Below, piece by piece: positions 9,369 through 19,423 of a stretch of DNA of 39,746 nt. The stretch is taken from assembly GCA_024277935.1 (NCBI GenBank), contig JAJRUF010000095.1, forward strand, positions 1 through 39,746. Direction: 5' to 3'. Each line of letters starts with the position of its first letter. Position 1 is the stretch's first letter. Under the pieces are notes generated by a model. The model searched no databases and was not told where the DNA came from. It saw only the letters and a list, made by a program, of their open reading frames with translations. Source of the stretch: Gammaproteobacteria bacterium. GTDB taxonomy: Bacteria; Pseudomonadota; Gammaproteobacteria; Methylococcales; Methylomonadaceae. The position numbers and the translations under genes are program-made.

Positions 9369-9489
9369 GTAGCTAGAATAAATAACCCACCCAAATTATA
9401 ACACTGAAGGCTGACAAAAGACCAACAAGGCTATTTTTTACTGGTTGCCTTAGCTTACAAAATTATTTTAATATTTGAACCAATAAGAA

Positions 9490-9546
9490 TTGGAAGTGAG
9501 ACTTTAGTCTCGCTTCATTCGTGCGAGGCTAAAGCCTCACTTCCAA
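9490..9546. repeat. Dispersed hairpin repeat, copy 1 (GAGGCTTTAGCCTC family)
   Basis: Two 24-base arms (9490-9513 and 9523-9546) are inverted copies with two mismatches, separated by a nine-base loop. Each arm contains its own near-palindrome (GAGACTTTAGTCTC in the left arm, GAGGCTAAAGCCTC in the right). The right arm is identical to the right arm of the hairpin at the far end of the window (39662-39685). This is REP-like architecture. It lies between guaD and the convergent exported-protein gene and could also act as a transcription stop, although no T-run follows it. Confidence 0.8.
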
Positions 9547-9572
9547 ATATTAGGCCTTTTATTCTCTCTTAC

Positions 9573-10072: not shown

Positions 10073-10504
10073 TTACTTATTTTTAGAAAGCAATTCAACA
10101 GTCGAGTGAAATTTAATTACACGAAGTATAAACTGACCACAGTTTAATTTTAAATTTATGCCACAATAGTGGTTTAGCCTTACCCCTTTGAAAAAAAAGT
10201 AGTTGAAGGATGTTTTATAGAATAGGGGAGCAAAAATCAAACATGGTTGTATACAATCCATATTGAAAAAATTTGATTTACTTCCTCCTTATAATTTTTT
10301 ATTACTGTGCTATTCAGAGTAATCAAAGAAACTAGCTTTTAATTTACCATCTGTTTTTAAAGCCATGCTCACCATTTTGAACTTCAATAATTCTCTATGG
10401 TGCTTTAATTTGTCTTTAGGAATTTTTTTATGACCATGATAGAACTCAAGCCATAAGCTCTTTATTCCAGCCTTTCCCTTACTTTTACTGATAGTTACCT
10501 TCAT
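10073..10504 (-). pseudogene. Decayed integrase, N-terminal half, related to the intact one at 16782-17918
   Basis: The 64-residue ORF at 10310-10504 begins MKVTISKSKGKAGIKSLW and continues to KLKHHRE, closely matching the intact integrase N-terminus. It then jumps to GKLKASFFDYSE in the arm/core-binding region. At the DNA level, the deletion joins two AGAGAAT copies that lie about 110 bases apart in the intact gene and shifts the frame. Past the ORF stop, nucleotide similarity continues (the shared stretch AGTAAATCAAATT and others), weakly to about 10080, with stops and frameshifts. The 62-residue track ORF at 10073-10261 is a piece of this remnant. The catalytic half is missing. Confidence 0.75.
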
Positions 10505-10538
10505 TTCTCACCACCTTTACAATACTTTTTGTATTACT

Positions 10539-10555
10539 GTAAATTTGGTGTAAAT
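10539..10555 (+). repeat. Arm-type repeat beside the decayed integrase
   Basis: TGTAAATTTGGTGTAAA is identical to 12107-12123 and differs in one base from 17955-17971. Here, as at the intact integrase, it sits just upstream of the integrase start codon. It is probably an integrase or excisionase binding site left by an older related element. Confidence 0.6.
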
Positions 10556-10572
10556 GCACTAAAAAACAGAAT

Positions 10573-10887
10573 TTATTCAAACATTTCCAATAATGTGGAG
10601 TGCCATAGTTTGATCTCTATTTCTCCCATTCTTTCTAGTAAACGCCTTTTGTCTACTGAACCCATTTGATCTAACAATAATCGAGAAAGACGGTTATTAA
10701 AAACTATTTCAGGCCTACAGCCTAAAGACTGACCTTTGCTTGTTAAAGGTGCAATGATAACCCTTGGCAAAGCATCATTTAAATCATCAGGTGATACAAC
10801 CAATGCAGGGCGTGTTTTCTTAATCTCTGAGCCAAAAGTAGGATCGAGGTTAACCCAATAAACCTCCCCACACTTTACCATTGCCAT
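10573..10887 (-). CDS. mazF: MazF/PemK-family endoribonuclease toxin
   Basis: This 104-residue protein has the full PemK/MazF pattern: VKCGEVYWVNLDPTFGSEIKKTRP, ALVVSPDDLNDALPRVIIAPLTSKG, LLLDQMGSVDKRRL and a C-terminal LLEMFE. The conserved loop (GSEIKKTRP) and the RVIIAPLTS strand that form the RNA-binding cleft are intact. MazF toxins cleave single-stranded RNA at short motifs. The start may be ATG 10887 or ATG 10881 (MVKCGE). Both overlap the relic of the antitoxin gene upstream, which is frameshifted. No terminator is obvious. It lies between the decayed integrase and the mobile element. Confidence 0.88.
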   Translation of the reverse strand: MAMVKCGEVYWVNLDPTFGSEIKKTRPALVVSPDDLNDALPRVIIAPLTSKGQSLGCRPEIVFNNRLSRLLLDQMGSVDKRRLLERMGEIEIKLWHSTLLEMFE

Positions 10888-11103
10888 TCCTCGGTAATAT
10901 CATCGGGTATAAGCTGTCATTCCATACATCACCCTTTATCTCCTCCTCTTCTTTATAACTATCAAACCAACCTTCTCTTGGTTTCTTTAATGCTTTAATG
11001 CTTTAATAATTAAAGTTTTACCTTCAATTCTTAAATCAACATCATTTTTTAACGAGCCAATAATTCCTTGAGAATTACCTACTTTTCTTAAATGAGTTTC
11101 CAT
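10875..11103 (-). pseudogene. mazE: Broken MazE/AbrB-type antitoxin gene
   Basis: From ATG 11103, five bases after GGAGG, the frame reads METHLRKVGNSQGI, the swapped-hairpin AbrB/MazE signature. It then passes directly to KNDVDLRIEGKTLIIKALKH and stops at 10987. Compared with family members about ten residues are missing after SQGI. The stop is caused by a tandem 8-bp duplication (GCATTAAA GCATTAAA). Removing one copy restores KALKKPREGWFDSYKEEEE. A second frame change follows WND, after which DDITEEWQW and a TAA at 10875-10877 overlap the toxin start, as expected for the original operon. At least two frame changes and a deletion make a working antitoxin unlikely. Confidence 0.82.
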
Positions 11104-11134
11104 CATTGCCTCCATTAAAACCAACAAATAATAA

Positions 11135-11150: not shown

Positions 11151-11284
11151 GTTTTATAAATAAGCTAAACCCCTTATTGCAAATAAGCCTTATTTTGTTT
11201 TTACCTGTCAAGTCTTTTTTGGTTTTTTATGGGGGAGCGAGAAATTACGTTTTTTAAGGGTTTAAATTCACCTCGGCCACTTAC

Positions 11285-11312
11285 TTGACAACCTATACAA
11301 GGTTGCTATAAT
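11285..11312 (+). promoter_or_regulatory. Consensus sigma70 promoter with a dyad in the spacer
   Basis: TTGACA (11285-11290), a 16-base spacer and TATAAT (11307-11312) match both consensus hexamers exactly. The inverted repeat AACCT-ataca-AGGTT (11290-11304) overlaps the end of the -35 box and most of the spacer, so a repressor or spacer-distorting activator could bind there. It points to the orphan ORF that begins 47 bases after the -10 box. Confidence 0.65.
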
Positions 11313-11359
11313 CAGAAAATATTTTAAATCATAGCAATAACTAAATAATCAACTGGTTT

Positions 11360-11884
11360 ATGTCTTTCAGAATTTTTGCAAGTGGTACAGGCCACTTCCG
11401 CTACATCAAAACTGGAATCGATTTTGGCGATGTTTATAATTTAGAGGATTGCCTAAACCGAATGATGTCGGTAAGTGCTGGAGCCAGATCATTCGTTCAA
11501 GACGAGGTTACTGAAGCCGCTACGCCGGATTCCCCTGTGCAGAAGACGTTGAATGCCATGGGACAGATTGTTGCTCTTGATTTATTGAGGACTGCAGTGA
11601 CCATCACACTTGCTGAAATGAGCCCAATCCATATCCACCTTTCGGCTTTTCAATCAAATTTGTTGATGGATGATGTAGAGGGACGTTCGCTATTACTTTC
11701 ATCGCTTGATGATGCCTCGGTAAGAGACTTTTTACGGGCCATCACCCCAGTGCTGGATGCAACAGGAATGCGAACCTTTGGTGTTTTAACTGCCATTGCC
11801 ACAGTTTTTTCTAATTTTTCAGTGGCCGGAGGACGAGCGCCAGTAGACGGCAGTTATCGACTGAATATCCAACTCTCGCATTAA
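11360..11884 (+). CDS. Orphan hypothetical protein with base composition unlike its neighbours
   Basis: This 174-residue ORF has no family I recognise. It lacks a signal peptide and membrane segments. The middle and C-terminal part look helical (LNAMGQIVALDLLRTAVTITLAEM, then FLRAITPVLDATGMRTFGVLTAIATVF). Two short clusters of glycine and aromatic residues lie near the N-terminus (GTGHFRYIKTG). By eye the coding sequence is clearly richer in G and C, with codons such as GCC, GGC and CGC rare in adjacent genes, which suggests recent arrival from another genome. The ATG at 11360 has no Shine-Dalgarno match, but a consensus promoter lies just upstream. It sits between mazEF and the left end of the mobile element. 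Confidence 0.6.
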   Translation: MSFRIFASGTGHFRYIKTGIDFGDVYNLEDCLNRMMSVSAGARSFVQDEVTEAATPDSPVQKTLNAMGQIVALDLLRTAVTITLAEMSPIHIHLSAFQSNLLMDDVEGRSLLLSSLDDASVRDFLRAITPVLDATGMRTFGVLTAIATVFSNFSVAGGRAPVDGSYRLNIQLSH

Positions 11885-12045
11885 AACAGACACAAAATAG
11901 CTTCACATGTAAATGGGGGGAAGTCTTGCAGAACCACATTTTACGTTATTACAAGATTTTACCCCATTCTTTTTTATACAGTGTTTTCCTTTGGGTTTAA
12001 GAGATAAAAACTTCATTTAACTGGCAGAGCTTCTTGATTTTACAA

Positions 12046-12064
12046 GTTACTTTCCTATACAGAA
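12046..12064. repeat. Left attachment site of the mnmE-targeted element
   Basis: GTTACTTTCCTATACAGAA matches the mnmE terminus at 18079-18097 except at two positions. On the minus strand it reads TTCTGTATAGGAAAGTAAC, which would encode the C-terminal FCIGK-stop of MnmE with a changed glycine-lysine segment. Its similarity to the 18-bp SGI1 attachment repeat at trmE, as I recall it, supports the call. Confidence 0.78.
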
Positions 12065-12106
12065 AGTACAAAAAGATATAATAACAAATACTTATAATTA
12101 GAATAT

Positions 12107-12123
12107 TGTAAATTTGGTGTAAA
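12107..12123 (+). repeat. Arm-type repeat inside the left end
   Basis: TGTAAATTTGGTGTAAA lies 42 bases inside the left attachment repeat and recurs, with one mismatch, inside the right end. This is the geometry of integrase arm-binding sites. It could also influence the dinJ promoter. Confidence 0.6.
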
Positions 12124-12178
12124 AAAGTTGATTTATTACTAAACTAGCTTTATTTTACTGACTTATGTTATATTGTAG

Positions 12179-12980: not shown

Positions 12981-13367
12981 TTAAAACCCATAACTATCTA
13001 GTAAGCTATCCTCTTCAGACTGCTTTTGTAATGTAGTTGGGTTGCTTGAACCTATCCTGCCCTGCTTTAGCCTTGTTAGCTCCAACACCTTAAAAGCGGC
13101 TGTTATTTTATCCCTGTGAGGGGCTTCATTATCTACCAATACACTTTCAATGGTTTCTAGTGCAACACTGGTTAAGCTTCTTAATTTATCTTGCTGAGCT
13201 TCAAGGTTAGCATTTAGCAAGCTGTTTAATTCTGCCTTGAAATTAAAATCAGCCTTATATCTGCTTATTGTTTCTGGGGCTAATTTTAGCTGTTCTGCTA
13301 CTTCTTTATTATTTAGCCCCTCTGATAATAGGATAATGGCTTTATGGTGCTGTGGGGTTAATTTCAT
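12981..13367 (-). CDS. HTH protein resembling phage terminase small subunits
   Basis: This 128-residue protein opens with a helix-turn-helix, LTPQHHKAIILLSEGLNNKEVAEQLKLAPETISRYKAD, of the LuxR/transposase-like kind. It is followed by FKAELNSLLNANLEAQQDKLRSLTSVALETIESVL and a segment (HRDKITAAFKVLEL) typical of the oligomerisation part of phBC6A51-type terminase small subunits. In phages this subunit recognises the packaging site. In satellites it can redirect a helper's packaging. A plain transcription regulator is the alternative. No large subunit or capsid gene is nearby. Confidence 0.6.
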   Translation of the reverse strand: MKLTPQHHKAIILLSEGLNNKEVAEQLKLAPETISRYKADFNFKAELNSLLNANLEAQQDKLRSLTSVALETIESVLVDNEAPHRDKITAAFKVLELTRLKQGRIGSSNPTTLQKQSEEDSLLDSYGF

Positions 13368-13426
13368 GATGATTTGTGAGCTTTATTGAGAGTTAATAAG
13401 CCGTTTTTCTGTATGGTGTATTTTTT

Positions 13427-13438
13427 AGGTTACCTTTT
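13427..13438 (+). repeat. AGGTTACCTTTT motif, inverted partner of 13924-13935
   Basis: AGGTTACCTTTT overlaps the stop codon of the 155-residue gene. Its exact reverse complement lies just upstream of that gene's start, and a third related copy lies 14 bases further on. It is a candidate protein-binding site of the element. Confidence 0.45.
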
Positions 13439-13904
13439 AATTATTTTTCTGCTGATTGCTCACCGTTTTAAAATGCTGAGTACATACATTTAGTTCTATA
13501 CCTTGCCAACTAGCTTTCAACTTTGCTGGTTTTGTACACCTTGCCCCTGTTTTAATTAATACTTGGCAATCATGCTCTTTATGCTTTAACTGTTCATATC
13601 GAGCTTCAAGGCTTCTAATTTCAGATTTTAACAATCGGGTTTCACTTTCTAGGCTTACCGCTTTTCTATGTTCATCATCATATTTTTGCACCTGCTTCAA
13701 GCTGGCATTATTAGCTATACTTTTACCGTTCAGAACATTAAACAGGTTTTGCAGAATATCAGGGCTTAAACTGCCTTTTTTGAGACTGCCTTTTAATTGA
13801 ATGACAAAAGGTAAAATAATACTGTTAATTTTAACCGTGGCTTGGGGTGGTTTTCTCTTGTTTTCTGGTAGTGCTTTCCTGCCCCTTGTTTCTTGTTTAG
13901 CCAT
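13437..13904 (-). CDS. Coiled-coil protein with a C-terminal Cys/His cluster
   Basis: This 155-residue protein has a basic, proline-containing N-terminus (RGRKALPENKRKPP), a central coiled coil (LESETRLLKSEIRSLEARYEQLKHKE) and a C-terminal cluster with spacing C-x8-C-x17-C-x2-H (CQVLIKTGARC ... VCTQH), plausible for zinc binding. I recognise no family. The charged N-terminus, coiled coil and possible zinc site suggest a DNA- or protein-binding accessory factor. The position immediately downstream of the Rep-like gene fits a replication role. ATG at 13904 has a GGA motif six or seven bases upstream. It is flanked by inverted AGGTTACC motifs. Confidence 0.65.
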   Translation of the reverse strand: MAKQETRGRKALPENKRKPPQATVKINSIILPFVIQLKGSLKKGSLSPDILQNLFNVLNGKSIANNASLKQVQKYDDEHRKAVSLESETRLLKSEIRSLEARYEQLKHKEHDCQVLIKTGARCTKPAKLKASWQGIELNVCTQHFKTVSNQQKNN

Positions 13905-13921
13905 ATCAGTTCCAAAATAAT

Positions 13922-13960
13922 AAAAAGGTAACCTTATTATAGTTTATTAAAAGGTTACCT
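13922..13960. repeat. Paired GGTAACC/GGTTACC motifs between Rep and the coiled-coil gene
   Basis: AAAAGGTAACCT (13924-13935) and AAAAGGTTACCT (13949-13960) sit 25 bases apart, about two helical turns and a half. The first is the exact reverse complement of 13427-13438. They fill the 61-base gap upstream of the coiled-coil gene. They may be an operator or part of the replication origin of the element. Confidence 0.45.
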
Positions 13961-13965
13961 GTAAA

Positions 13966-14889
13966 TTATCTATAAAACTCTCTTGCTTGCTTAACTTTCA
14001 TATCAAGCTCTGTAATTAGCTCTGACTCTTCAGTTAAAATCTTATCATTGCTAAGGTCTAAAATTTTATCTTTAAGTCTTTTTGCCTGCCCCCTATTGTT
14101 TAATTTACCCTCTGCCCTTGACCTGTCTATTATTCTTAAAAATTCCTGTTCTCCTCCATAAGCTTCCAGCCCTTTTAGCATTAACTGCCTTCCCAGTAAT
14201 TTAGCATTATTCATAGTTTCTTTAGTAAAGCTGTGTAATCTGATTTTATTAACTTGCTGGTAATGATTAAACCATCCATCAACCATTTTCATATAAACAC
14301 CTTCATCATATAGATTTTGAGCTGTAAACATTGGCATATCAAGAAGCTCATGAGGTTTTTTCATATATCTAAATTCATACCTTAATACTTGTTTGTTATT
14401 CCATGCTTCAGGCAATTTTAGCCCTCTATGCTTGCCTTCAGCCACCTTATTATAAAACACTAACTGTTTCTTTGAATTACTGTAATAAATACTTTTAGGC
14501 TTTTCTTGTCTTTCTAATCTGGGGCAATCACCCAATAAATCATAATAGGCTTGGTGTTTATGCTTCATTATTAGATTTTCTGCTATATCCACCCTTTTTA
14601 CTCCTGCTTTATTTACATTAATACCCAACTTATCAGAAAGGCTTTCAATGGCTTCTTCTGTCCCTTTTCTTGTGAGAGTCTGGAAATTATCCCCTAAATA
14701 ATACTTGGCTAAACTTCCCTTTAGACTGATACCATAATTATAAATTGAAACTTTGTAATTACCAAGATACCCAAAACATGAAACTTTTGCTGTAGTGAGG
14801 GAATATACTTCACTCACCCTTTCCAGATTGTTAAGAATTGCTGTTGATGTGTGGCTTTGTGGTAGCCATAAATTGACTGTATCTAACAT
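13966..14889 (-). CDS. Rolling-circle-type replication initiator (gene II/X or Rep_trans-like)
   Basis: This 307-residue protein starts MLDTVNLWLP, the opening typical of phage/plasmid gene II/X replication proteins. It follows their motif order: LKGSLAKYYLGDNFQTLTR near residue 80, an R-x-D motif (VKRVDIAENLIM), a Y-x-K motif (SIYYSNSKKQLVFYNKVAE) and an R-x-E motif (LRYEFRYMKKPHEL). Enzymes of this kind nick their origin by a tyrosine and start rolling-circle replication. I infer that the element can replicate after excision. The catalytic tyrosine is not certain from sequence alone. The closest proteins I can recall are from Bacteroidetes elements. Confidence 0.75.
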   Translation of the reverse strand: MLDTVNLWLPQSHTSTAILNNLERVSEVYSLTTAKVSCFGYLGNYKVSIYNYGISLKGSLAKYYLGDNFQTLTRKGTEEAIESLSDKLGINVNKAGVKRVDIAENLIMKHKHQAYYDLLGDCPRLERQEKPKSIYYSNSKKQLVFYNKVAEGKHRGLKLPEAWNNKQVLRYEFRYMKKPHELLDMPMFTAQNLYDEGVYMKMVDGWFNHYQQVNKIRLHSFTKETMNNAKLLGRQLMLKGLEAYGGEQEFLRIIDRSRAEGKLNNRGQAKRLKDKILDLSNDKILTEESELITELDMKVKQAREFYR

Positions 14890-14894
14890 TAGAC

Positions 14895-14913
14895 TGTAAC
14901 CAAAACTGTTACA
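14895..14913. promoter_or_regulatory. Dyad upstream of the Rep-like gene
   Basis: TGTAAC-caaaact-GTTACA is a six-base inverted repeat starting six bases before the Rep ATG. It may be a Rep operator or a nicking-site hairpin. The half-site GTTAC recurs in the GGTTACC motifs and in the attachment repeat, possibly by chance. Confidence 0.35.
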
Positions 14914-14944
14914 AAATACACTTACTATAGAAGAATGGATAAAT

Positions 14945-14971
14945 AGCCCTGAAAATCAACCTAACAGGGCT
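14945..14971 (-). terminator. Hairpin after the 162-residue gene
   Basis: AGCCCTG and CAGGGCT form a seven-base stem with a 13-base loop, placed between the stop at 14988 and the Rep gene. T-rich sequence follows weakly on each side (ATTTAT on the minus strand, GTTTATTATTT on the plus strand). It is probably a partial terminator or an mRNA-stabilising hairpin. Confidence 0.5.
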
Positions 14972-14987
14972 GTTTATTATTTCTAAA

Positions 14988-15476
14988 TTAAGATGCTTTT
15001 TGATAGTTAAAAAAAGGCATTGCCTGCTGTTTGATTTGCTCTATTTCTTCATCCAACTCACCATCAATAAATTGCTGAAAATATTGCTTCTTTAAGTGTT
15101 TGCCATTCTTGATAAGAAACATATCAATACTGCTTAAATCATTACTCAGTTTGAACAGTAAACAATCATTGCCATAATCACCATATCCATATTCTGAATA
15201 CTCAAGATTTGGAATAAAAATGGAGGATAGATTTTTTGAACCATGAGTTAAGCCTATATCTGATATTCTTTTTGCTTTAGCAGTTACATAATTTTCAGGG
15301 GCAGAACAATAAAAATACATCTGCCCTTTTCTATTAACAAACTGGTTGAGTGGTTTATCATCCAATAAGTTAAAATGCCTTGTGCAATCAAGCCTAGCTG
15401 ATGATTTTATTTTCCACTCTTTCTTAATATCTGCAGGTAATTTTTGAAGTTGATAATAGGCGGTTATATGGCTCAT
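14988..15476 (-). CDS. Hypothetical protein of the mobile element
   Basis: This 162-residue protein of no recognised family has an N-terminus (YYQLQKLPADIKKEWKIKSSARLDCTRHFN) that is basic and helical, a middle part rich in tyrosine and glycine (YSEYGYGDYGND), and an acidic helical end (DGELDEEIEQIKQQ). No membrane segment or signal is present. Its ATG overlaps the stop of the excisionase-like gene by four bases (ATGA), which makes it a real, co-translated gene. The conserved position between a HTH gene and a Rep gene suggests a role in element regulation or replication, but nothing more can be said. Confidence 0.65.
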   Translation of the reverse strand: MSHITAYYQLQKLPADIKKEWKIKSSARLDCTRHFNLLDDKPLNQFVNRKGQMYFYCSAPENYVTAKAKRISDIGLTHGSKNLSSIFIPNLEYSEYGYGDYGNDCLLFKLSNDLSSIDMFLIKNGKHLKKQYFQQFIDGELDEEIEQIKQQAMPFFNYQKAS

Positions 15477-15781
15477 TTAGAACCCCCTACTAAGTGATTG
15501 ACTGCTTTTTGTTCCAGTTCATCGGCTGAATAGACTTTATTCTTTAAAACCCATTTATCTAGCTCTGAGCGTTTAAAGTAAATCTTTTTCCCAGACGGTT
15601 TGTAATGAGGTATTAAACCCTGTGAAGTCAGTTTATAAAGATGTGAACGGCTGTGGTTTATGTATGAAGCAGTTTCATTAAAATCAAGAGTATCTTTTGT
15701 AGCTGTAAATACTTCGGCTAAAGTTGATTTTAAATCTACTACTTCTTGATGTAATGTTTCTAGTGTTATTGCTTGTGGCAT
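15473..15781 (-). CDS. Excisionase-like helix-turn-helix DNA-binding protein
   Basis: This protein has a short coiled N-terminal helix (LHQEVVDLKSTLAEVF) and then a winged HTH of the MerR/excisionase type: FNETASYINHSRSHLYKLTSQGLIPHYKPSGKKIYFKRSELDKWV, where the last part is the characteristic wing. The ORF track extends to 15832, but ATG 15781 has an AGGA motif six bases upstream and begins the conserved part, giving 102 residues. The ending (VYSADELEQKA) matches the style of Bacteroidetes element proteins of this class as I remember them. The likely job is directing excision with the integrase or controlling element genes. Confidence 0.75.
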   Translation of the reverse strand: MPQAITLETLHQEVVDLKSTLAEVFTATKDTLDFNETASYINHSRSHLYKLTSQGLIPHYKPSGKKIYFKRSELDKWVLKNKVYSADELEQKAVNHLVGGSK

Positions 15782-15858
15782 TTTTTGTCCTAATATTGAT
15801 AAGTAAGTAATCAATATAGGGATGAAAGGCAATTATTAGAATTAACAGAATATTACCG

Positions 15859-16779
15859 TTAATGAAGTGATAATATTTCCTTAATAATATTATCAATTAT
15901 CAGTTTAGGATTATCAGTTATTTGCCTAGCCCCTGATTTTAGGCTATCCCCCTTAACACACTTTCCTTTTACTAAAAATATTCCCCCTGCAACTTTCCAA
16001 TTTTGATGTGTAAAAACAATACCCTTATTTTTAATTTCTTGAATAAAGTAACCTAATTGGCTTTGTAGTCCAGTCCATACAATAGAACCTTCACTATTTA
16101 AAAAGGCATTTTCAAAATCTTCTAATGTTATTTCTGCTATTAGCTTATTATCAATTAGGTCTTTATGTAGTGCTGGTATTGTTTTTTTTGGGTTTAGAAC
16201 TTGAAAGCCCTGATTGTTTTCAAATATTTTTTCAGGCTCACCCTTTTCTATTAACTCTTCTAAATATTCTCTAATCCATAACAACGCTTGAACCCTTGCA
16301 GAAAGCCACCATTTTTTATTATTTGGGTTATCAAGGTTTTCAGGTTCTAAACTCACACTACCTAAAGACAATATATCTAAATGCCCTTTAGTTAAAAAAG
16401 AATCAAAATTACCCCTAAGAAGCATTAAATACTGTTTAAATATTTCCTCTGGTAATAGTTCAACCTTAAACAATGGTTCAGAACTTCTAAAAATATGCTC
16501 TTCAATATTTACTGCCATTGATAGACTTTCTCCACATTCAAAGAATCTATCCAGCTCTCTTAATTCCATTTGTGCTAATTTATTTAGGTTAATCGACCTA
16601 ACACAAAAAGCATAAATACCTTTATGGATGCTATCAAAATCATTCTTTGCACATTGTAACCATTGTTTTAAAACCCCATTATCATCTTCACTATAATCAC
16701 CCATCATTGTATTTTTTAAAGTAAAGCGGCTTTCTAAACTTCTATCTCTTGAATTAAATAAAGGCTCTCTATCTGACAT
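15859..16779 (-). CDS. Hypothetical protein following the integrase gene
   Basis: This 306-residue protein starts two bases after the integrase stop, so the two are co-transcribed. The N-terminal two thirds are mostly helical (FKQYLMLLRGNFDSFL, SARVQALLWIREYLEELI) and unrecognised. The final 90 residues (LIDNKLIAEITLEDFENAF, then SIVWTGLQSQLGYFIQEIKNKGIV) resemble a short module found at the end of uncharacterised proteins in Bacteroidetes elements. No catalytic motif, membrane segment or signal peptide is apparent. Context suggests a recombination accessory or regulatory role, but this is speculative. Confidence 0.65.
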   Translation of the reverse strand: MSDREPLFNSRDRSLESRFTLKNTMMGDYSEDDNGVLKQWLQCAKNDFDSIHKGIYAFCVRSINLNKLAQMELRELDRFFECGESLSMAVNIEEHIFRSSEPLFKVELLPEEIFKQYLMLLRGNFDSFLTKGHLDILSLGSVSLEPENLDNPNNKKWWLSARVQALLWIREYLEELIEKGEPEKIFENNQGFQVLNPKKTIPALHKDLIDNKLIAEITLEDFENAFLNSEGSIVWTGLQSQLGYFIQEIKNKGIVFTHQNWKVAGGIFLVKGKCVKGDSLKSGARQITDNPKLIIDNIIKEILSLH

Positions 16780-16781
16780 GA

Positions 16782-17918
16782 CTAAAGCCCTATACTTGGT
16801 ATTTTGTGCATTGCTATCTTTCTTTGTTCATCAATAATATCTGCATAAATCTGGGTAGTTTTTAACTCACTATGCCCCAATAACTTACTAACTGTATAAA
16901 TATCAGTACCCATTGTTAGCTGAAGAACTGCAAAAGTATGCCTAGCACAATGAAAAGTTATATCCTTGGTAATACCTGCTCTCATACACCATTTAGTTAT
17001 TTCTGCATTGTGGTAAGCATCATATTTAAGCTTTTTAAAGACCCTTTGCTCTGGTTCATCTTCTACACCTAATAACTGATAAGCCTGCTCTGAAATATCA
17101 AGATATTGTAAAGTTTCAGTTTTTTTATGGTGAAAAGTGACCCTATAACTATCATTAAAAAGCTGGACTTCTGACCATGCTAATTTTTGAATATCTGACC
17201 ACCTAAGCCCTGTCAAACAACTAAATAGAAAAGCCCTTTTCAAAACTTCATATTTACATTCAGCTTGATTTAAAGCCTTAACTTCATCCAGTGTTAAATA
17301 TTCCCTTTTATTCTGTACTGGCTTAATTGATTTAACTTTGGTGATTGGGTTTTTTACAATAATTTCATCTTTAAAGGCTTGGTTCAAAGCGGCTCTAAAT
17401 TTATTAAAATAGGTGCTTGCTGAATTAGAGCTTAATTTGGTTTTACTTTTTGTGAGTGGGGTGGTTTGGAGGTAGTCCTTAAACCCCTCTACAAATTCAG
17501 GGGTAATCTGTGCAAAGGTCAAATCACCCTTGCCATGAAATGATTTAAGGTGATTTAGCGTGCTGTACCATATAGAATAATTTGATTTACTGCCTGTTTG
17601 TAACTTCTCATTACTCAACTTTTCAAAATAATCAAAGAAACTAGCTTTTAATTTCCCCCCTGATTTAAAGCTATGCTCACCATTTTGAGCTTCAATAATT
17701 CTCTTTGCTCTAATCGCTTCTGCTAATTGTAAGGATTGTTTGTTGTGCTGTTTTTCTGCTGGGGTTTTTGGAGTGGCATAAATAAAGCCATTAAGGTTTT
17801 CATATTCTCTATGGTGCTTTATTTTGCCTTCAGGGGTTTTAGTGTAACCATGATAGAACTCAAGCCTAAGGCTGAGTGTCCCTGCTTTAGCCTTTCTTTT
17901 ATTGATTGTTATCTTCAT
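16782..17918 (-). CDS. int: Tyrosine recombinase (integrase) of the mnmE-targeted element
   Basis: This 378-residue phage-type integrase has three parts. Residues 1-85 are an arm-binding domain of the kind typical of Bacteroidetes integrases (MKITINKRKAKAGTLSLRLE, IYATPKTPAEKQHNKQSL, AEAIRAKR). Residues about 90-190 are a SAM-like core-binding domain. The catalytic domain carries R239 (TGLRWSDI), K265/K266, H323 and R326 (HCARHTF), H349 (LLGHSELKTT) and Y358 (QIYADI). All catalytic residues are present, so it should be active. Its start lies beside arm repeats and 161 bases from the mnmE-side attachment site. A decayed relative lies at 10.1-10.5 kb. Confidence 0.95.
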   Translation of the reverse strand: MKITINKRKAKAGTLSLRLEFYHGYTKTPEGKIKHHREYENLNGFIYATPKTPAEKQHNKQSLQLAEAIRAKRIIEAQNGEHSFKSGGKLKASFFDYFEKLSNEKLQTGSKSNYSIWYSTLNHLKSFHGKGDLTFAQITPEFVEGFKDYLQTTPLTKSKTKLSSNSASTYFNKFRAALNQAFKDEIIVKNPITKVKSIKPVQNKREYLTLDEVKALNQAECKYEVLKRAFLFSCLTGLRWSDIQKLAWSEVQLFNDSYRVTFHHKKTETLQYLDISEQAYQLLGVEDEPEQRVFKKLKYDAYHNAEITKWCMRAGITKDITFHCARHTFAVLQLTMGTDIYTVSKLLGHSELKTTQIYADIIDEQRKIAMHKIPSIGL

Positions 17919-17919
17919 T

Positions 17920-17971
17920 TTTTTACACCATTTTTACACCAAGTTAGGCTTTAGTGTAAATTAGGTGTAAA
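17920..17971. promoter_or_regulatory. Cluster of integrase arm-type sites in the int promoter region
   Basis: Two direct TTTTACACCA copies (17921-17930 and 17932-17941) and the inverted TGTAAATTAGGTGTAAA (17955-17971) share the core GGTGTAAA. The last differs by one base from copies at 10539 and 12107. They lie directly before the integrase start, where arm-type binding and autoregulation are expected. Binding is inferred. Confidence 0.6.
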
Positions 17972-18078
17972 AAATAGTAAAGAAAAGGATAATTAAAAGA
18001 AGCTATAAACAAGACAATCTATCTAAATCATTGTTTTTGTTTTCTTATTTTATCTTATTTTTGGATGATATTTTTAAG

Positions 18079-18097
18079 GTTACTTCCCTATACAAAA
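18079..18097. repeat. Right attachment site, overlapping the mnmE 3' end
   Basis: GTTACTTCCCTATACAAAA read on the minus strand gives the FCIGK-stop end of mnmE. The near-identical copy at 12046-12064 marks the other end. The insertion leaves the mnmE reading frame intact. Confidence 0.78.
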
Positions 18098-19423
18098 CGA
18101 ACTAAAAATACGCCCTAGCAAATCATCCGAACTAAATGTACCGGTAATTTCTGCTAAACTATTTTGGGCTTGTCTTAAATCTTCGGCGACTAATTCACCC
18201 GCCTGATGTTGTAATTGCTCCCGTGCATTTTCTACACTTTTTTGGCCTTGGGTTAAAGCATCAATATGCCTTTTTCTAGCAATAAAAACATCATCTGTTT
18301 CACTATTAAAACCCACTGTTTGTTTAAGGTGATTAATTAATAACGCCATCCCAATACCCTTTTTTACTGAAAGATATATTTGGCTTCCCTGTTCATTTTC
18401 TATTATTTCTGGTTCTATACCTAATAAATCAATTTTGTTATAAACTTTAGTTATATCTAAATCAGTAGGCAGTACTTTCATCACTGAGTCTATCTCAGGA
18501 TCTGTGCTATCAATTAATAATAAAACTTTATCCGCTTGTTTAATTTCTTCATGCGCTCGGCGAATGCCTTCTTTTTCAACTAGATTATCACTTTCTCTTA
18601 ATCCTGCAGTATCAATAATATGAAGGGGCATACCATCAATTTGGATTCTTTCTTTTAGAATATCTCGGGTTGTCCCTGCAATATCTGTCACTATTGCTGC
18701 TTCATGTCCTGCCAATGCATTGAGTAAACTTGATTTTCCTGCATTTGGTTTTCCAGCTAAAACCACTGTCATTCCATCTCTTAATAAACGACCTTGCTGA
18801 GCAGTTTTTAGAATTTTTTGTATTCTTGTCGATAGGTTTATAATTTTATTTTCAACCACTCCATCGGTTAAAAAATCAATTTCTTCATCAACAAAGTCTA
18901 TTGCCGCTTCTACATATATTCTAAGTTCAGTAAGCTCTTCAACTAATTCATTGACTTGTTTAGAAAAAACACCTTGCATAGATTTTTGGGCCGATCGTAC
19001 AGATTGCTCTGTACTACTTTCTATTAAATCTGCAACAGCTTCTGCTTGCGCTAAATCTAGTTTATTATTGAGGAAAGCTCTTTCTGTAAACTCTCCTGGG
19101 TTAGCTAACCTTGCCCCTAGTTTCACCACTCTTTTTAACAGCATACCCAAAACCACGGCTCCACCATGCCCCTGTAGTTCAATAGTATCTTCACCTGTAT
19201 AGGAGGCAGGATTGGGGAAATATAGTAGGATGCCTGAATCTATTATAGAGTCACCTTCATCTCTAAATGAAGTAAAACACGCTTGTCTTGAAACAGGTGT
19301 TTTTTGCGTTATTTTCTGAGCAATTTCAAGAGCTGAAGGTCCTGAAATTCTGATAATACCCACACCTCCATTTCCGGGAGGTGTTGCAATGGCAGCAATG
19401 GTATCTTGTATAATTTGTTGCAC
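18080..19423 (-). CDS. mnmE: tRNA modification GTPase MnmE
   Basis: MnmE works with MnmG to install the 5-carboxymethylaminomethyl group on wobble uridine-34. The 447-residue protein has the N-terminal tetrahydrofolate-binding domain (IATPPGNGGVGIIRISG), a helical middle domain and an embedded GTPase domain: G1 GKPNAGKSS (from residue 224), G2 GTTRD, G3 DTAGLR and G4 NKID. It ends with FCIGK, whose cysteine is invariant. The start is GTG at 19423, which gives the normal N-terminus, without a clear ribosome binding site. The last codons are the target of the mobile element. A terminator separates it from yidC upstream. Confidence 0.98.
   Translation of the reverse strand: MQQIIQDTIAAIATPPGNGGVGIIRISGPSALEIAQKITQKTPVSRQACFTSFRDEGDSIIDSGILLYFPNPASYTGEDTIELQGHGGAVVLGMLLKRVVKLGARLANPGEFTERAFLNNKLDLAQAEAVADLIESSTEQSVRSAQKSMQGVFSKQVNELVEELTELRIYVEAAIDFVDEEIDFLTDGVVENKIINLSTRIQKILKTAQQGRLLRDGMTVVLAGKPNAGKSSLLNALAGHEAAIVTDIAGTTRDILKERIQIDGMPLHIIDTAGLRESDNLVEKEGIRRAHEEIKQADKVLLLIDSTDPEIDSVMKVLPTDLDITKVYNKIDLLGIEPEIIENEQGSQIYLSVKKGIGMALLINHLKQTVGFNSETDDVFIARKRHIDALTQGQKSVENAREQLQHQAGELVAEDLRQAQNSLAEITGTFSSDDLLGRIFSSFCIGK

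Follow-up and report, generated by a model that had tools for sequence, protein, structure and literature searches.

A solitary foreign gene between copies of the mnmE 3' end at an integration hotspot in a Methylomonadaceae bacterium

In the window analysed here, a stretch of 39,746 nucleotides from a Methylomonadaceae bacterium (assembly GCA_024277935.1, contig JAJRUF010000095.1), a single gene stands by itself behind a consensus promoter, and the question is how it came to be there and what kind of product it may encode. A first-pass annotation had described an open reading frame of 174 residues, an exact promoter and a dyad, all of which were present where it had placed them (Table 1). It had also proposed that the gene was cargo at an integration hotspot, and this was borne out: the hotspot is the 3' end of mnmE, and the gene, referred to below as the solo gene, lies between two att copies of that end.

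Table 1. Features of the solo gene and of the adjacent integrative elements (window coordinates)
Feature	Position	Strand	Basis
N-terminal remnant, with an internal deletion, of the integrase of older element C, beyond att3	10258..10503	-	sequence comparison
att3, diverged copy, TTACTT-GACAA-CCTATACA, holds the -35 box	11281..11299	+	site comparison
Exact consensus sigma-70 promoter TTGACA-N16-TATAAT, extended -10	11285..11312	+	sequence scan
AACCT-N5-AGGTT dyad overlapping the att core, candidate operator	11290..11304		weak evidence
Solo foreign gene, 174 aa, protein start MSFRIFASGTGHFR	11360..11884	+	ORF list, codon use, homologue alignment
Long terminator-like hairpin followed by TTTTTT, directly 3' of the solo gene	11912..11975	+	z = -2.7
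att2, copy of the mnmE 3' end, border of segment B and element A	12047..12061	+	site comparison
Integrative element A, 6 kb	12047..18094		gene content and att1/att2
Tyrosine integrase of element A, mnmE-specific family	16782..17918	-	homologue loci
att1, real mnmE 3' end, stop codon side	18080..18094	+	site comparison

The solo gene showed a GC content of 45.5%, versus 35% for the window, and a GC3 of 0.41, against 0.16 to 0.33 for all other genes checked. Its codon score, for which the preferences of 17 window genes served as the reference, was -0.078, versus 0.199 ± 0.046 for the same protein recoded in host codons (z of about -6). The other genes of the island scored between 0.05 and 0.25, and all other genes tested were positive. 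Codon use is therefore not normal, in agreement with the foreign composition assigned to the gene at first reading. That reading had also remarked on the lack of a ribosome binding site and of a recognisable family. No Shine-Dalgarno sequence was present upstream of the ATG at 11360, and the protein had no match in profile searches of Pfam, NCBIfam, PHROGs and PADLOC or in the PDB; for its part, Rfam gave no match in the region of the gene. AlphaFold models reached a pLDDT of 35 with one input sequence and of 39 with two, and because of these low values no fold search was made with them.

The designation of the gene as an orphan did not hold in the strict sense. Among about 2,000 genomes searched overall for homologues, one true relative was found, when 399 genomes sampled from the phylum were searched; it is encoded by G790, a member of another class of the same phylum (E = 1e-18, 36% identity over the full length). 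Both proteins begin with MSFRI, and the start of the G790 gene is preceded by a ribosome-binding site (GGGGGAGAG), which supports the ATG at 11360 as the start of the solo gene. The motifs MSFRIxAxGTGxFR, GDVY and DSPVQ are conserved between the two. The G790 homologue is a lone single-gene insert of about 670 bp between glnA and the next gene; in congeners such as L178 and L158 the corresponding flanks are separated by about 25 nt and carry no gene between them. A search for terminal repeats around the insert was negative; the insert is located away from mnmE, att sites are not visible there, and it has no recognisable toxin-antitoxin neighbour. Given this setting of the homologue, the gene need not travel with mnmE elements.

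Further searches yielded no other credible member. In the solo protein's own lineage there was, apart from the protein itself, no credible match in 101 relatives, in 310 other genomes of the order or in a sample of 369 genomes of the host's class. On the side of the homologue, 300 other genomes of the family of G790 and 288 of its class were equally negative, as were a tblastn search of phage and plasmid records with the solo protein and scans of genome contigs and of viral contigs for exact peptides. Two weak matches were rejected, one (G338) being a reading frame opposite a housekeeping gene and the other (G604) a 26% stretch within a frame of 3539 aa. The family is thus real and very sparse, and its gene stands alone both times. 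It is undescribed in the libraries searched; this kind of arrangement, on the other hand, is already known.

The att sites were studied by comparison with the mnmE 3' end. The sequence that ends mnmE (18080-18105) is found again at 12047, where about 33 of 40 positions are identical. In the whole genome of 3.28 Mb, TTACTT-N0-6-CCTATACA is present exactly three times, each time in the window and in one orientation: at the end of mnmE, at the distal end of element A and in the solo-gene promoter. Its reversed control occurs 0 times in the genome. The gap of 0 to 6 was set after the site had been seen, so that a chance match is possible in principle for att3. Relative to att1 and att2, att3 carries an insert of 4 nt, and its flanks show little identity to those of the other copies. 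A precedent for a length change at that very point is provided by two other loci (L101 and L107), whose distal att copies contain inserts of 2 nt.

Element A contains genes for the integrase, an HTH_17 (AlpA-like) protein, a G2P-like replication protein related to G2P of filamentous phages and a TerS-like HTH protein, plus a complete relB-yafQ pair. Neither a relaxase nor phage structural genes were recognised in it, nor, judging by gene content, any SGI1 backbone or IncC-dependent mobilisation genes. The integrase gene adjoins the 3' end of mnmE, and the target is duplicated at the far end of the element. Relatives of this integrase are encoded immediately 3' of mnmE in about 40 other loci, about ten of which show a distal att copy; the hosts comprise methanotrophs and other Gammaproteobacteria, Balneolota and Bacteroidota. 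The stretch 12981-17918, which includes the integrase, HTH, G2P-like and TerS-like genes and that of a 162-aa protein, is closely related to an element in Methylophaga (L082) and more distantly to elements in Balneola and Gracilimonas (L109 and L112), all of them at mnmE. Together they make up a family of small integrative elements that crosses phylum borders and carries replication genes of the filamentous-phage type.

A repeat, TGTAAATTTGGTGTAAA, is found at 10535-10557, 12104-12126 and 17952-17974, that is, close to each end of element A and next to the integrase remnant. It was first assumed to be the att sequence, an assignment that was dropped, given that it sits inside the elements, close to their ends; from its position it is probably a recombinase or excisionase binding site. 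Beyond att3, the remnant of the integrase of element C belongs to the same family as the integrase of element A. Also beyond att3, an intact frame for the toxin gene mazF lies next to a broken antitoxin gene, mazE, whose frame stops early at an 8-nt tandem repeat (10985-11007; both genes within 10573-11115). Further away, at 9484-9552, there is an intergenic 30-nt inverted repeat, 87% complementary (GAAGTGAGACTTTAGTCTCGC / GCGAGGCTAAAGCCTCACTTC), of REP-like or MITE-like appearance.

Between att2 and att3 lies segment B, of 0.77 kb, which has the solo gene as its sole gene. It contains no integrase or transfer gene, and the solo ORF is the only one of at least 80 aa between 11299 and 12047. 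The TGTAAATTTGGTGTAAA motif of the ends of element A is absent from segment B, which may be unable to excise. Segment B is best read as a CIME-like remnant or 'moron'-like cargo, in a tandem accretion at the mnmE (trmE) hotspot. Like a CIME (PMC5704250), it lies between two att copies, lacks integrase and transfer genes and adjoins an intact element with the same target site; it differs in comprising just 0.77 kb and one gene, in the divergence of att3 and in that no relaxase was recognised in the adjoining element. Similarly, element A shares with the trmE-targeting islands (PMC7449626) the target at the mnmE 3' end, a tyrosine integrase and the occurrence in tandem arrays, but it measures 6 kb and has a G2P-like replication gene.

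The promoter of the solo gene consists of TTGACA (11285-11290), a spacer of 16 nt and TATAAT (11307-11312), with TG ahead of the -10 box. As the first-pass annotation had it, the boxes are exact; they are, moreover, the only exact pair with suitable spacing in the window, where 0.07 would be expected, with 0.0002 expected in the 250 nt 5' of the ATG (frequencies calculated over the window alone). From these features the promoter is predicted to be active. The -35 box comes from att3 with its insert and the -10 box from segment B; the promoter therefore spans an old recombination junction and may have been created by recombination at that point. The claim that it is repressible was not supported. 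A 5-nt dyad is found in 3 to 9% of random stretches of equal size and is hence weak evidence of an operator; moreover, it shares bases with the att core, and none of the neighbouring genes was recognised as a regulator. The hairpin 3' of the gene is not listed by a simple terminator scan, which considers loops of 3 to 8 only.

The three att copies plus the integrase remnant beyond att3 point to a tandem array, mnmE-att1-A-att2-B-att3-C. We consider it probable that segment B is the cargo of a decayed element of this array, bounded by att2 and att3, and that the solo gene is self-contained. Elements with tyrosine integrases specific for the mnmE 3' end would have integrated repeatedly at the same place, and the older ones would have decayed, leaving A intact and C decayed, with segment B, presumably placed by site-specific recombination, retaining its cargo gene alone. 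Published work calls tandem islands at trmE 'not a rare occurrence' (PMC7449626), and the decay of elements to att-bounded CIMEs, with subsequent accretion, is described as the usual way in which tandem structures arise (PMC5704250). The solo gene would then be a 'moron'-like unit, with foreign composition, one frame, its own promoter and its own terminator-like hairpin, the last two of which would make it expressible alone. Phage 'moron' loci are horizontally acquired and independently transcribed (PMC6469090), and the solo gene resembles them in being foreign and single, with a promoter and terminator of its own as read from the sequence and unrelated genes on either side. It differs in not residing in a phage genome, although element A has one filamentous-phage-type replication gene.

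An origin in which the gene entered an existing island alone, between two of its genes, by illegitimate recombination or through a single-gene mobile unit of unknown type, att3 being incidental, appears rather unlikely. The divergence of att3 is compatible with it, as is the G790 homologue, a lone insert free of att sites and terminal repeats; yet the att pattern, found nowhere else in the genome outside the array, falls exactly on the upstream border of the solo gene. Less probable still is that the gene forms a minimal mobile cassette, flanked by two sites for mnmE-specific integrases that move it in trans, whose strong promoter is completed by the junction, the site supplying the -35 box and the cassette the -10 box, and whose product is a new anti-phage or stress protein.

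The position of the gene between the mazEF remnant and relB-yafQ, together with the small extra genes that such modules can have, would fit an immunity or antitoxin-like partner of one of them. We regard this as highly improbable, since relB-yafQ is already a complete pair, mazF, encoded on the opposite strand, has a broken mazE of its own, and the homologue stands apart from any recognisable toxin-antitoxin gene. Finally, the absence of a Shine-Dalgarno sequence and of a family match would be expected of a spurious ORF, a chance open frame in GC-richer DNA. However, an open frame of this length was reached in only 0.05% of shuffles, and the 36% identical protein with the same start in another class refutes this explanation, to which we attach practically no likelihood.

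As for the product, our best guess is an accessory trait, perhaps defence. The role in defence or stress response suggested by the first-pass annotation exceeds the present evidence; the PADLOC models of known anti-phage families gave no match. The likeliest class, put forward tentatively, is a solitary accessory protein with a target in the host or in a phage (defence-like).

The solo gene is a clean example of a rare foreign gene arriving, and staying as a solitary unit, at a hotspot in a tRNA-modification gene. It draws attention to a very sparse protein family that the searched libraries lack, and the locus shows the breadth of the mnmE-specific integrase family, which extends over Gammaproteobacteria, Balneolota and Bacteroidota. 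If the att junction does complete the promoter, this would be a simple way for an integrated gene to gain expression.
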